Part shown: one piece after another, positions 10,666 through 33,390 of the stretch
How positions within the stretch are numbered: the first letter of the stretch is position 1
How the letters are laid out: each line of letters starts with the position of its first letter
Assembly: GCA_017481745.1 (NCBI GenBank)
Contig: JAFUOV010000024.1
Coordinates: 1 to 64,000, forward strand
Source: Bacteroidaceae bacterium
GTDB taxonomy: Bacteria; Bacteroidota; Bacteroidia; Bacteroidales; Barnesiellaceae_A
Direction: 5' to 3'
DNA length: 64,000 nt
Notes under the pieces: model-generated
The model's input: only the letters and a program-made list of their open reading frames with translations
The model's database searches: none
What the model was told of the DNA's origin: nothing
Position numbers and translations under genes: made by a program

Positions 10666-12822
10666 ATGAAGGTCTACAATTCGCACGAAATTAAAAACAT
10701 TGCCCTTTTGGGTAGTAAGGGAGCCGGTAAGACCACACTCGCCGAAGCAATGCTTTACGAGTGTGGTGTGATAAAACGTAGAGGTACTATCGAAGCTGGT
10801 AATACCGTAACAGACTATTTCCCCGTAGAAAAAGAGTATGGTTACTCAGTATTCCCCACAGTATTCTATGCCGAGTTCCTCAATAAGAAATTGAACGTTA
10901 TTGATTGCCCCGGAGCCGATGACTTTGTAGGTGGTGCTATCACAGCTTTGAGCATTACCGATACAGGTGTTATCGTTGTCGATTCGCAATATGGTGTTGA
11001 GGTAGGTACTCAAAACATTTTCCGCACTGCCGAGAAGTTGAACAAGCCTATCCTCTTTGCCATGAACCAACTCGATGGCGAGAAAGCCGATTATGACAAC
11101 TCATTGGAGCAATTGCGTGAGGCATTTGGTAACAAAGTTGTTCAAGTACAATATCCCATCTCTTGTGGCGCATCGTTCAATGCTATGATCGACGTGTTGC
11201 TCATGAAGATGTATAGCTGGGGTCCCGACGGTGGTGTGCCCACTATCAGCGACATTCCCGAGAGCGAGATGCCCAAAGCATTGGAGTTGAACCAAGCACT
11301 TGTTGAGGCAGCAGCTGAGAACGACGAGACATTGATGGAGAAATTCTTCGACCAAGGTTCACTCACCGAGGATGAGATGCGTGAAGGTATCCGCAAGGGT
11401 CTTGTTACTCGCAGCATATACCCCGTATTCTGTGTAAGCGCATTGCGCGACATGGGTGTACGTCGTATGATGGAATTCTTGGGTAACGTAGTGCCTTTTG
11501 TAGACGATATGCCTCTGCCCGTTACAAACAACGCCGAGGAAGTTGCTCCCGATGCAAACGGTCCTGTAAGCCTCTATGTATTCAAGACAACTGTTGAGCC
11601 CCACATTGGTGAAGTTTACTACTTCAAGGTAATGTCGGGTACACTCAAAGAGGGCGATGACTTGGTGAATATGAATCGTGGCAGCCGCGAGCGTATGGCA
11701 CAGCTATACTGCGTATGCGGTCAGATACGCAACAAAGTAGAACAATTGGTGGCAGGTGATATAGGTGCCAGCGTGAAACTCAAAGACGTGCGCACCGGCA
11801 ATACACTCAATGAAAAAGGATGCGAATATGTATATGACCTCGTTCAATATCCTGCTCCCAAATATCAACGCGCCGTACGTCCTCAAAACGAAGCCGATGC
11901 CGAGAAATTGAGCGAAATACTCACTCGTATGCACGAGGAAGATCCCACATGGGAGGTTGAGCAATCGAAAGAGCTCAAACAAACCATCGTTTCGGGTCAA
12001 GGCGAGTTCCACTTGCGCACACTCAAATGGCGTATCGAAAACAACGATAAATTGCCTATCGAGTATCAAGAGCCTCGCATACCTTATCGTGAAACAATCA
12101 CCAAGGCTTCTCGCGCCGACTATCGCCACAAAAAACAATCGGGTGGTGCAGGTCAATTTGGTGAGGTACACCTCATTGTTGAGCCCTACTACGAAGGCAT
12201 GCCCGCTCCCGATACTTACAAGTTTGGCAACCAAGAGTATCGCATGAGCGTACGTGATACTCAGACTATCGACCTCGAGTGGGGTGGTAAACTCGTTGTT
12301 ATCAACAGTATCGTAGGTGGTGCTATCGATGCACGTTTCATCCCCGCTATCGTGAAGGGTTTGATGGATCGCATGGAGCAAGGTCCTCTCACCGGTTCGT
12401 ATGCACGCGACGTACGCGTATGCATCTATGACGGTAAGATGCACCCCGTTGATTCAAACGAAATCTCATTCCGCTTGGCAGCACGTAATGCCTTCAGCGA
12501 GGCGTTTAAGGCAGCCGGTCCCAAAATCTTGGAACCTGTTTACGATGTAGAAGTACTTGTTCCCAGCGACAAGATGGGTGATGTAATGAGCGACTTGCAA
12601 GGTCGTCGTGCCATCATCATGGGTATGACCAGCGAGAAAGGTTTCGAGAAACTCTCTGCCAAAGTGCCTTTGAAAGAGATGGCTTCTTACTCAACAGCTT
12701 TGAGCTCGTTGACCGGTGGTCGTTCGTCGTTCACTATGAAGTTTGCTTCGTACGAGCTCGTTCCCGGCGACGTACAAGAGAAACTTCTCAAAGCATACGA
12801 GGCTGAAGAAAAAGAAGACTAA
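10666..12822 (+). CDS. fusA2: Elongation factor G paralogue EF-G2 with degenerate GTPase motifs
   Basis: This 718-residue protein has all five EF-G domains and should bind the ribosome and support translocation. Its G domain departs from true EF-G: the P-loop is GSKGAGKTT (residues 16-24), the DTPGH motif reads DCPGAD (80-85) so the catalytic His is Ala84, the NKxD motif is NQLD (134-137), and the switch I RGITI segment is missing (EYGYSV instead). These losses match the Bacteroides EF-G2 described as supporting translation without GTP hydrolysis during carbon limitation and gut colonisation. The domain IV loop (SGGAGQFGEVHL) is well kept. It is a single gene with a palindrome upstream and a strong terminator downstream. 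Expression is probably starvation-linked. Confidence 0.9.
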   Translation: MKVYNSHEIKNIALLGSKGAGKTTLAEAMLYECGVIKRRGTIEAGNTVTDYFPVEKEYGYSVFPTVFYAEFLNKKLNVIDCPGADDFVGGAITALSITDTGVIVVDSQYGVEVGTQNIFRTAEKLNKPILFAMNQLDGEKADYDNSLEQLREAFGNKVVQVQYPISCGASFNAMIDVLLMKMYSWGPDGGVPTISDIPESEMPKALELNQALVEAAAENDETLMEKFFDQGSLTEDEMREGIRKGLVTRSIYPVFCVSALRDMGVRRMMEFLGNVVPFVDDMPLPVTNNAEEVAPDANGPVSLYVFKTTVEPHIGEVYYFKVMSGTLKEGDDLVNMNRGSRERMAQLYCVCGQIRNKVEQLVAGDIGASVKLKDVRTGNTLNEKGCEYVYDLVQYPAPKYQRAVRPQNEADAEKLSEILTRMHEEDPTWEVEQSKELKQTIVSGQGEFHLRTLKWRIENNDKLPIEYQEPRIPYRETITKASRADYRHKKQSGGAGQFGEVHLIVEPYYEGMPAPDTYKFGNQEYRMSVRDTQTIDLEWGGKLVVINSIVGGAIDARFIPAIVKGLMDRMEQGPLTGSYARDVRVCIYDGKMHPVDSNEISFRLAARNAFSEAFKAAGPKILEPVYDVEVLVPSDKMGDVMSDLQGRRAIIMGMTSEKGFEKLSAKVPLKEMASYSTALSSLTGGRSSFTMKFASYELVPGDVQEKLLKAYEAEEKED

Positions 12823-31629: not shown

Positions 31630-31710
31630 ACAAATGTAAATAATCGCTATATTTATTGTAAATTTTAAAATTGTATGCCTATGTAATATAAAAAAAAGAC
31701 ATATGGATAA

Positions 31711-31940
31711 AAAGCGTTAGCTTATATTCTGGCTTTCTAAAATCGGCAAATTTGAAAAAAGCACCAAGAGTAAAAGTTAATGCCCACGGTTTATTTGTGG
31801 GCTATTACTTGTGTATGGTGCGTAGGTGTTTGCCGATACCTTGAAAGCGTAGACAAAGTAATTAGTCCACGTTTTTTATTGTCTATACTAAGGGAAAGGA
31901 CTATTTTATGAAGATTAAGGCAATACCGGCAAAGCCATAA
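31711..31940 (+). ncRNA. Candidate structured RNA with nested stems and an H-type pseudoknot
   Basis: The 335-base gap 31,630-31,964 is rich in complementary segments. Stems: ATCGGCAAA 31,742-31,750 with TTTGCCGAT 31,829-31,837 (9 bp perfect); GCACCA 31,761-31,766 with TGGTGC 31,816-31,821; AAGT(T)AAT 31,774-31,781 with ATTACTT 31,804-31,810; GCCCAC 31,782-31,787 with GTGGGC 31,797-31,802. All four are nested. Then TAGACAA 31,850-31,856 with TTGTCTA 31,879-31,885, interleaved with TAGTCC 31,863-31,868 and GGACTA 31,898-31,903, a pseudoknot. A small AAGC/GCTT stem lies at 31,712-31,723. GGACTA abuts the ATG of a 10-codon ORF (31,908). I know no named family for it. It could be a cis-regulator of that ORF or of the 31,965 gene, or an independent RNA. 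Confidence 0.5.
31908..31940 (+). CDS. Possible 10-codon ORF inside the structured element
   Basis: ATG at 31,908 opens a 10-residue ORF, MKIKAIPAKP, ending at TAA 31,938-31,940. It follows a purine-rich stretch (AAGGGAAAGGA, 31,890-31,900) at a ribosome-site distance. Part of that stretch is the 3' half of the proposed pseudoknot, so folding could hide it. The ORF ends 24 bases before the next gene's ATG. Existence as a peptide is unproven. Confidence 0.3.
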   Translation: MKIKAIPAKP

Positions 31941-31964
31941 GAGTCGGAATTAAAATTACACACT

Positions 31965-32645
31965 ATGAAACATACAAGATTTTTAGTTTTTATTTTAACA
32001 TTTTTCTGTGCATTAACTACTTGTATTGCACAGAAAAAGACAATACACGTTCTTCCTGAAAATGCCAAGATTTTCTATAATGGACAAGAAGTAGGAAATG
32101 GCTCGTACGAAATCAAATTTAAAAGAGGTGATGATTTTGTTGTGCTTCGTTTTGAAGCTCCCGGATATATAACACGAACAGTAAGGTTGTTTAGAGAAAA
32201 TCCCAAGAAAACCATACTCTATGAATTGTATCAAGATGAAGCAGAAATGAACTCTATGGGTGCAGGAGAAGGTGTTGATATTGCAAATAAATATTTTACC
32301 GTTACCTGTCGCGAAGGAATGTCGGAAGATGTCGTATGGAAGCGTCTTATGAATATTGCAGTTTTAAACTTTGAGAATGTTGAAATTCGTGATAAAGCTG
32401 CCGGATGGATACGTACAGCTTGGGTACCAACTACTTTTGCATATCAGATTGTAAGGACACGAATGGAAATACGTTTACAATTTGCCGGAGAAGGTGAACT
32501 GGTATATCAAGTAAAACTTTCATCAGAGATAGCCGACAAAGACTGTGGTGGAAGTGACCAATGCTTTGAGCGTTATGATCGTATCTTACGAAAGTACGAG
32601 GGAGTTATAACTGAATTACAAACAACATTAGGTAGTAACTTGTAA
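31965..32645 (+). CDS. Secreted protein with a PEGA-like N-terminal domain
   Basis: This 226-residue protein has a signal peptide (MKHTRFLVFILTFFCALTTCIAQ). Residues of about 25-90 follow the PEGA pattern of a short beta-sandwich with a hydrophobic turn (IHVLPENAKIFYNGQEVGNGSYEIKFKRG, key IFYNGQEVGNG, then RFEAPGYITRTVRL). The C-terminal part (about 105-226) is a separate alpha/beta region with VTCREGMSEDVVWKRLMNIAVLNF and two Cys in DCGGSDQCFERYD. No family is recognised for it. The gene is AT-rich like its neighbour 9 bases downstream, and both differ from the flanking genes, so the pair may be an acquired unit. It directly follows the structured RNA candidate. Confidence 0.8.
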   Translation: MKHTRFLVFILTFFCALTTCIAQKKTIHVLPENAKIFYNGQEVGNGSYEIKFKRGDDFVVLRFEAPGYITRTVRLFRENPKKTILYELYQDEAEMNSMGAGEGVDIANKYFTVTCREGMSEDVVWKRLMNIAVLNFENVEIRDKAAGWIRTAWVPTTFAYQIVRTRMEIRLQFAGEGELVYQVKLSSEIADKDCGGSDQCFERYDRILRKYEGVITELQTTLGSNL

Positions 32646-32653
32646 TTTCTATT

Positions 32654-33250
32654 ATGAAAAAGATATTTGCTTTTATAATCTTGATGTTACCGTTGTGTGT
32701 GGTCGCTCAAGATAAGTTTGTTATCACTGATACATTCGACGGTGGTAAGTTTCAATGGGATGAAGCCTTCGAAAAAGACTATACAGTGTGTATTATGGAT
32801 GGCTACTATCTGGTTGAAAATAAGGATAACAACCGTTCTGTTTTCGGTACAGCCGATATGCCTATTGAAGTCGGAAAGAATTTTAAGTTGAAAGTCAAAA
32901 TTAATGTACCCAAAATAAAGAAAGATAAATATTGGGGCATTATATTCGATTTTGTTGATGAAGATAATTTTTCTGCCTTTCTTGTTGCTGAAAAGAAATG
33001 TAAGATTGTTAATATAATAGATGGTAGATCAAGAAGAGTCCGACAACTTCCTATTATCCTATCAGCCAAGAAGAATAAAGATGTCGTTATTGAAGTTGAG
33101 AGGAAAAGCAATAAACTTACATTTTCTGTAGATGAAATGGAGGCTGCCACCATAACTCGATTATTGTCATCAACCTGCTTTGGTTTTATTGTCGATGGTG
33201 AAAATTCTATTAAGGTCGATGAAATATCAATCGAACAAAGAGTGGATTAA
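32654..33250 (+). CDS. Secreted protein with a jelly-roll-like fold, function unknown
   Basis: This 198-residue protein has a signal peptide (MKKIFAFIILMLPLCVVAQ). The mature part reads like a concanavalin A/3-keto-disaccharide hydrolase-type beta sandwich: ITDTFDGGKFQWDEA at the start, GYYLVENKDNNR, FKLKVKINVPKIKKDKYWGIIFDFVDEDNFSAFLVA (key YWGIIFDFVDEDNFSAF), then KLTFSVDEMEAATI and GFIVDGENSIKVDEISI. These domains often bind or cut carbohydrates, but no catalytic residues can be named. It is cotranscribed with the PEGA-like gene and is AT-rich. Confidence 0.8.
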   Translation: MKKIFAFIILMLPLCVVAQDKFVITDTFDGGKFQWDEAFEKDYTVCIMDGYYLVENKDNNRSVFGTADMPIEVGKNFKLKVKINVPKIKKDKYWGIIFDFVDEDNFSAFLVAEKKCKIVNIIDGRSRRVRQLPIILSAKKNKDVVIEVERKSNKLTFSVDEMEAATITRLLSSTCFGFIVDGENSIKVDEISIEQRVD

Positions 33251-33272
33251 TCTTTCCTGATTCAAAAGAATG

Positions 33273-33316
33273 AATAGGTTGTGTCAAAGGTAAGCTTTTG
33301 ATTCAACCTATTTTTT
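33273..33316 (+). terminator. Terminator hairpin, distant relative of the GAGGCTGTGTC repeats
   Basis: AATAGGTTG (33,273-33,281) pairs with CAACCTATT (33,304-33,312), with an inner stem (GTCAAA/TTTGAT), followed by a T tract. The left arm shares GGTTGTGTCAAA with the repeat family at 198 and 15,418. Confidence 0.8.
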
Positions 33317-33355
33317 ATTTATTATGTAGTATGGCGTGCGTGCCAAAAAAATTCG

Positions 33356-33364
33356 TATCTTTGT
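33356..33364 (+). promoter_or_regulatory. -7 element of the PAS protein gene
   Basis: TATCTTTGT matches TAnnTTTGY, 27 bases before the start codon. No -33 TTG is evident. Confidence 0.5.
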
Positions 33365-33390
33365 TCTATTAACCTTAAAAACTAAAAGCT

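Follow-up and report, generated by a model that had tools for sequence, protein, structure and literature searches.

The element between positions 31,710 and 31,882 (+ strand) of the window, by which we mean the whole 64,000-nucleotide stretch of Bacteroidaceae bacterium contig JAFUOV010000024.1 analysed here, is on good comparative support one member of a multicopy RNA family found across the Bacteroidota, where it precedes hundreds of unrelated genes, most of them coding for secreted proteins. It may take up either of two folds, and both the family and the two folds are well supported by the alignment of homologous sequences. As to function, the best reading is that of an attenuator, and this rests on the shape of the RNA: the element is probably a terminator/antiterminator leader that controls transcription without a leader peptide. 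The leader RNA family is apparently undescribed; no published description of the element was found in the literature searched, a body that under-represents subscription journals.

Distribution of the family

How widely is the element distributed? Within the genus, blastn returned five relatives at 69–78% identity from three other genomes, lying in differing gene contexts. Their homology to the window spans approximately 31,667–31,884, and the 10-codon ORF to which the first-pass annotation had drawn attention falls outside it. A covariance model built from six sequences (R1) found 4 to 10 matches in each of nine congeneric genomes (9/9). A second model built from 34 sequences (R2) found matches in 99 of 247 sampled Bacteroidales genomes, covering 78 of 173 genera, with up to at least 11 matches per genome, and in 38 of 296 genomes sampled phylum-wide. 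The window element itself scores 175.4 bits with R1 and 149.2 bits with R2, and its own genome holds 9–10 copies or more. In all, 197 distinct members were collected.

Further hosts were detected by a DNA pattern and confirmed by R2: Alistipes, Prevotella disiens, Hoylesella buccalis, Odoribacter, Tannerella and Symbiothrix, and, in the Flavobacteriia, a Flavobacterium, a Tenacibaculum, Capnocytophaga catalasegens and a Weeksellaceae strain. Pattern matches in Alphaproteobacteria, Deltaproteobacteria and an archaeon received no confirmation from R2 and were set aside. Plasmid and phage collections searched by blastn gave no match to the element. Members are also present on viral-called contigs, at 12312–12488 of L058 (an IMG/VR contig) and at L315, L316, L318 and L319. 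The gene behind the L058 copy encodes an RteC protein (Pfam, 6e-43); RteC is a regulator from Bacteroides conjugative transposons.

Does the element belong to a named family? None of 4,227 Rfam families (Flavo-1, 6S and riboswitches included) gave a match at cut-off in the window or at the scanned elements. The cut-off matches at the scanned loci were tRNAs, one separate FopS site and, only at the 3′ module of member L048, DUF805b. At permissive E-values the matches were at chance level, the DUF805 module excepted. The FopS/GibS sRNAs are of the wrong length, and BTncRNA_FopS (RF04319) has no match in the window or in any scanned element. The first-pass annotation had recognised no named family, and Rfam indeed holds none for this element; the covariance-model search of Bacteroidales and Rfam that it had recommended yielded the homologues counted above and no Rfam family.

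The rod fold

The stretch 31,711–31,940 (+ strand) folds at −66.1 kcal/mol (z −3.4), a value as good being reached by 1 of 200 shuffles. The long nested arm that had been proposed for it exists, and is conserved with massive covariation. On the + strand it comprises P2 (31,733–31,739 with 31,841–31,847; 98.9% of cells paired, 7 of 7 pairs changed on both sides), P3 (31,742–31,751 with 31,828–31,837; covarying, with a strictly Watson–Crick 7-bp core), P4 (31,760–31,766 with 31,816–31,822; 98.5% paired, 7 of 7 pairs covarying) and P6, whose 5′ strand at 31,782–31,789 is the putative antiterminator partner of 31,795–31,802 (98.2% paired). Across 103 sequences (Neff 73), 93.9% of the cells in the 44 pairs of this rod hold a standard pair and 41 of the pairs have changed on both sides, which none of 500 shuffles matched and no slid control came near, figures that lean towards the rod in that the alignment was fitted to a model already holding its pairs. 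An unbiased scan of column pairs places P2, P3 and P4 at the top, with APC-corrected G mostly 70–170. Their core pairs covary at G 47–170, where the null reaches 20 at most, and the end pairs of P2–P4 that score lowest among those listed stand at G 29–47, the column-shuffle maximum being 17–20. Conserved stretches within the element include GAAA and AGGU/ACCU. Compensatory change, the test proposed earlier for these stems, is found in the nested rod, and in homologues from well outside a single strain; the refuting outcome named there, a lack of homologues or of conserved pairings, did not arise.

A second, mutually exclusive fold

Is the rod the only structure recorded in the alignment? Among pairs outside the model, the column-pair scan brought out strand 3 with strand 4 (87–164, 88–163 and 89–162) together with 107–142; 88–163 lies slightly below the null maximum and the other three lie above it. 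We also drew a segment map, in which the pairing of 13-nt segments with their own partners was compared with their pairing to other members' partners (47 sequences below 70% identity, 30 permutations per z). Over 630 segment pairs, with a median z of 0.2, strand 3 × strand 4 reached z 9.0, a × b 6.6, c × e 6.3 and s1 × s4 6.2.

The significant segments fall on continuous diagonals that correspond to two long hairpins, H5 and H3 (+ strand). In H5, strand 1 (31,713–31,732) pairs with strand 2 (31,765–31,784) along one continuous diagonal (s1 × s4, a × b); strand 2 may instead join P5/P6 with strand 3. In H3, strand 3 (31,795–31,817), which in the rod pairs with the 5′ strand of P6, is closed by strand 4 (31,848–31,870; tip3 × end at z 9.0, c × e). 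Taken together as one structure, H5 and H3 are paired in 81.6% of cells, and both partners have changed in 31 of their 40 pairs; this is better than all 500 shuffles and all slid controls, although the helix register was picked on the same alignment, which favours the fold somewhat; the segment map was untuned and the H5/H3 pairs are absent from the model.

Since H5/H3 and P5/P6 share strands 2 and 3, the two folds are mutually exclusive: strand 3 covaries with two partners and cannot pair with both simultaneously. For each of these incompatible folds about 100 sequences supply the compensatory changes, and we read this as selection acting on both. The H-type pseudoknot of the first-pass annotation gives way to this pair of exclusive folds. 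The first of its two stems (31,850–31,856 with 31,879–31,885) is absent from the relatives that were read and is not among the significant segment pairs; the second, dealt with below, was correctly identified.

The scarcity of G–U pairs

An ordinary RNA helix does not account for the near-absence of G–U pairs from P2–P4. G–U accounts for 0.6% of paired cells in the P3 core (4/715), 2.5% in P2 and 3.2% in P4, as against 13–24% in H5, H3 and P6. Between closely related members, double changes number 263 and one-sided changes 79. Either G–U is not tolerated in P2–P4, as in a loop–loop contact, or the two strands are subject to a templated process, the correction of imperfect palindromes, that alters both at once. 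Such correction, if real, would weaken the argument from covariation for P2–P4; the argument for H5, H3 and P6 would be unaffected.

A proposed terminator and antiterminator

What might the two folds do? H3 runs flush into a U-tract (31,872–31,877, + strand). A U-tract of at least 6 T in 8 nt follows in 97% of 129 non-redundant members, compared with 15% and 20% in control segments. The H3 of the window (31,797–31,872) folds at −31.8 kcal/mol (z −6.2); across 117 non-redundant members the 3′ half alone has a mean z of −4.2 and lies below −2 in 96%. A terminator-pattern scan, which covered loops of 3–8 nt only, did not list H3, a hairpin with inner loops and a long span. Two hallmarks of an attenuator are present: a stem (strand 3 × strand 4, z 9.0) followed directly by a U-tract, and an exclusive antiterminator stem, formed by strand 3 with strand 2 in P6 and paired at 98%.

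The sequences themselves show the family, the two folds, the U-tract, the promoter and the gene order; beyond this we infer that transcription ends at H3, that the RNA switches between its folds in the cell and that some signal makes the choice. In the rod, strand 3 would be held by strand 2 (P5/P6) while P2–P4 zip the two halves together; strand 4, left free, would pair with a strand just downstream, and RNA polymerase would read on into the secreted-protein genes. In the two-hairpin fold, strands 1 and 2 would form H5 and strands 3 and 4 H3, which with the U-tract would take the form of an intrinsic terminator; transcription would stop at about 31,878, and the leader set free would measure roughly 220 nt. 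The choice may lie with a protein, with a small RNA or with the speed of RNA polymerase. For the window the rod is computed at −54 kcal/mol and H5 plus H3, taken apart, at about −45 kcal/mol. The rod being the more stable, a trigger or kinetic trapping would be required before H3 could terminate transcription.

A more elaborate possibility, which we offer tentatively and judge unlikely, is that H5 and H3 coexist with the rod as one interlocked object. The apical loops are complementary (the 7-bp P3 core, closed on its 3′ side by AGGU/ACC), as are the inner-loop strands (P2 and P4), so that the two hairpins might make a first kissing or paranemic contact, from which the rod would then zip up. 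A timed, nearly G–U-free loop recognition within one nascent RNA would then decide between stop and read-through. To our knowledge, a switch of this kind has no precedent.

The promoter and the 5′ region

An imperfect Bacteroidota −7 promoter box, TATATTTA, stands at 31,648–31,655 (+ strand) and differs from the consensus TAnnTTTG in its last base. This consensus is enriched 60–90 nt upstream of members, with 24 occurrences in the best 10-nt bin against 0.83 expected. Between the box and the rod lies a small conserved hairpin, P0 (GCCTATG ... AGACATAT; 31,677–31,704, + strand). Among 129 non-redundant members, 32 carry TATG..CATA where 3.7 would be expected, and GCCTATG is the most enriched upstream 7-mer. 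The boundaries drawn by the first-pass annotation took in the rod, and missed the 5′ hairpin, the terminator-shaped alternative fold and the promoter. Single-sequence folds had also suggested a long-range closing stem, AAAAGCG/CGUUUUU; its 5′ strand fits a local hairpin and H5 better.

Might a leader peptide govern the switch, as in classical attenuation? Short upstream ORFs overlapping strand 1 are depleted, occurring in 17 of 128 members where shuffles predict 50.7, and a leader peptide is unlikely.

An element bounded by its own promoter box and U-tract might also be a stand-alone sRNA gene acting in trans, in front of a neighbouring gene with its own start; multicopy sRNA families are known in Bacteroides (FopS, PMC11697453). 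On such a reading the distances are awkward. The start codon on the same strand lies at a median of +50 nt past the element, often too close to accommodate a second promoter. Strand 4, moreover, is more closely complementary to the mRNA that follows it than to the corresponding mRNAs of other copies, and the leader stays constant while its cargo changes. We therefore think a trans-acting sRNA quite improbable.

Pairing with the downstream strand

The second stem of the proposed pseudoknot joins UAGUCC (31,863–31,868), within strand 4, to GGACUA (31,898–31,903, + strand). Homologues make the same pairing with other letters (AAGUCC/GGACUU, UUUUAGUCC/GGACUAAAA and AGUGCC/GGCACU). In 40 non-redundant members, strand 4 scored 15.34 with its own downstream strand and 12.69 ± 0.39 with permuted ones (z 6.8, p ≤ 5e-5), while control segments, at z 1.4 and −0.5, were not significant. 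A first, wider version of this test gave z 4.6. The closing strand of H3 thus has a partner 14–25 nt downstream, and in the segment map, drawn on a wider set, strand 4 with the downstream segment at +18 reached z 5.8. Without the first stem of the proposed pseudoknot, UAGUCC/GGACUA becomes a local hairpin in the rod fold, and any crossing pairs come from other helices.

The downstream partner sits between the element and the start codon, and in some copies (L055, L062) the start codon stands directly behind the U-tract. Might the element then act on translation or on mRNA stability, the rod and the downstream pairing shielding or exposing the start region, or protecting the 5′ end, and the U-tract being structural, with no terminator? 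Such control would leave unexplained the covariation of strand 3 with strand 4 and a U-tract flush with the hairpin in 97% of members, and we regard it as a minor, rather unlikely possibility. The first-pass annotation had pictured either a switch of translation or a structured RNA in its own right. The structured RNA stands; the evidence points to a terminator and antiterminator, in place of a switch built on the 10-codon ORF (MKIKAIPAKP). That ORF is not conserved, and it overlaps a weak DUF805-like 3′ module (GGCaauACCGgcaaaGCCauaaGAGUcGG; 31,912–31,953, + strand) which scores 16.4 bits (E 1.9), below the DUF805 cut-off of 51.1 bits.

Modules of this type follow other members as well. A DUF805b module 3′ of member L048 scores 35.6 bits, just at cut-off, and that of L046 scores 32.1 bits; GAGTAGG is found behind 18 of 195 members. 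The DUF805b module (L048 1439–1474, − strand; L046 1704–1740; L056 1698–1733) seemingly contains a second pairing, between an ACCC-type loop and a GGG-type strand (ATTTC/GAAAT in L056, ATTCC/GGGAT in L059), which is absent from the Rfam model.

Cargo genes and mobility

The leader of the window belongs to a species-specific islet (31,644–33,388, + strand) made up of promoter, leader RNA, two cargo genes and terminator. The first cargo gene (31,965–32,645) encodes a 226-aa secreted protein with a possible PEGA domain, below the Pfam cut-off; the second (32,654–33,250) encodes a 198-aa secreted protein to which no family is assigned. A structured RNA upstream of two secreted proteins, as first proposed, was right in outline. 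The islet ends in a terminator-like inverted repeat with a T-run, read from the sequence at 33,273–33,317 (AATAGGTTG...CAACCTATTTTTTATT). It is flanked by an AMP-binding (fatty-acid-CoA-ligase-like) gene and a PAS-domain gene, which adjoin each other in 6 of 7 congeneric genomes (L323–L329). The seventh (L328) bears a different islet, of 3.2 kb, at the same site, which marks this as a variable spot.

Is there a common theme among the downstream genes? A crude, home-made rule classed 84 of 117 of their products as secreted or lipoprotein-like; the same rule, run on the other ORFs at these loci, so classed 113 of 379 (p 1e-15). By blastp the 117 proteins fall into 89 clusters, mostly unrelated to one another. 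As regards a metabolite riboswitch, the element has the conserved stretches named above, and the cargo shows no common pathway. One exception to the secreted products recurs: a small HTH-like protein of 68–84 aa that starts shortly after the U-tract. It occurs at L031, L055, L062, L163, L214 and L244 and is a candidate for autoregulation; the one example tested has no Pfam or NCBIfam match.

Two genomes of one family, G172 and G067 (loci L330 and L331), share 1.9 kb upstream at 96% and 2.8 kb downstream at 98%, and yet the two cargo genes behind the leader are wholly different, the two sequences parting where the element ends on its 3′ side. Over 4.5 kb one of the two loci matches a genome from another family (G189) at 99.75% identity, and this points to a mobilizable element. 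With cargo swapped behind a constant leader and a near-identical locus in another family, it appears that the leader travels and that its cargo is exchanged. The swap site lies 3′ of a Mob/Pre relaxase-like gene (identified by eye) and 5′ of an 871-aa gene. A FopS sRNA gene (RF04319, 66.3 bits) lies at L330 6987–7053 (− strand), a few kb from the family member.

Mobility of leader and cargo, exchange at the 3′ end of the element and avoidance of G–U in P2–P4 would together suit a DNA element, in which the inverted repeat acts as single-stranded DNA or as a recombination site (an integron attC, for example) and the RNA is incidental. We hold this to be very improbable. G–U pairs are frequent in H5, H3 and P6, the + strand folds more stably in 61 of 64 members, and the element has a fixed orientation, a promoter and a U-tract. 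No second copy was seen at the right border of the cargo, and the attC core sites were compared by eye.

Significance and comparison with known systems

If the attenuator reading is right, Bacteroidota of the gut, the mouth and the environment place many secreted and surface proteins under leaders of a single architecture, which travel with variable cargo and reach ten or more copies in some genomes. Little is known of post-transcriptional control in this phylum, to which the element would then add a widespread switch; it would also offer a clean natural model of co-transcriptional folding. Its signal could be tested in the culturable Hoylesella buccalis ATCC 35310, Prevotella disiens JCM 6334 and Alistipes sp. 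dk3624.

How does the element compare with RNAs already described? Flavo-1 and the other motifs of a 2010 survey (PMC2864571) are likewise structured RNAs widespread in the Bacteroidota, but gave no cut-off match in any scanned locus. FopS/GibS (RF04319; PMC11697453) are, like the element, multicopy Bacteroidota RNAs linked to surface functions; FopS, however, are trans-acting sRNAs of 65–70 nt. The cis-regulatory motifs DUF805 (RF03081) and DUF805b (RF02914) also stand in front of Bacteroidota genes. A DUF805b module follows the hairpin in some members, and L042 precedes a DUF805 gene. Of the 3′ side these motifs span only 35–68 nt, and neither model contains the 173-nt bistable element.

Closest in logic are the intrinsic attenuators, of the trp type or built on riboswitch platforms. 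Classical attenuators operate through 1:2, 2:3 and 3:4 pairing. The element likewise has four strands with these three pairings, the last followed by a U-tract. It differs in that a leader peptide is unlikely and no conserved aptamer core was recognised, in serving cargo of unrelated families, and in the loops of its two hairpins, which are complementary to one another over about 20 bp.
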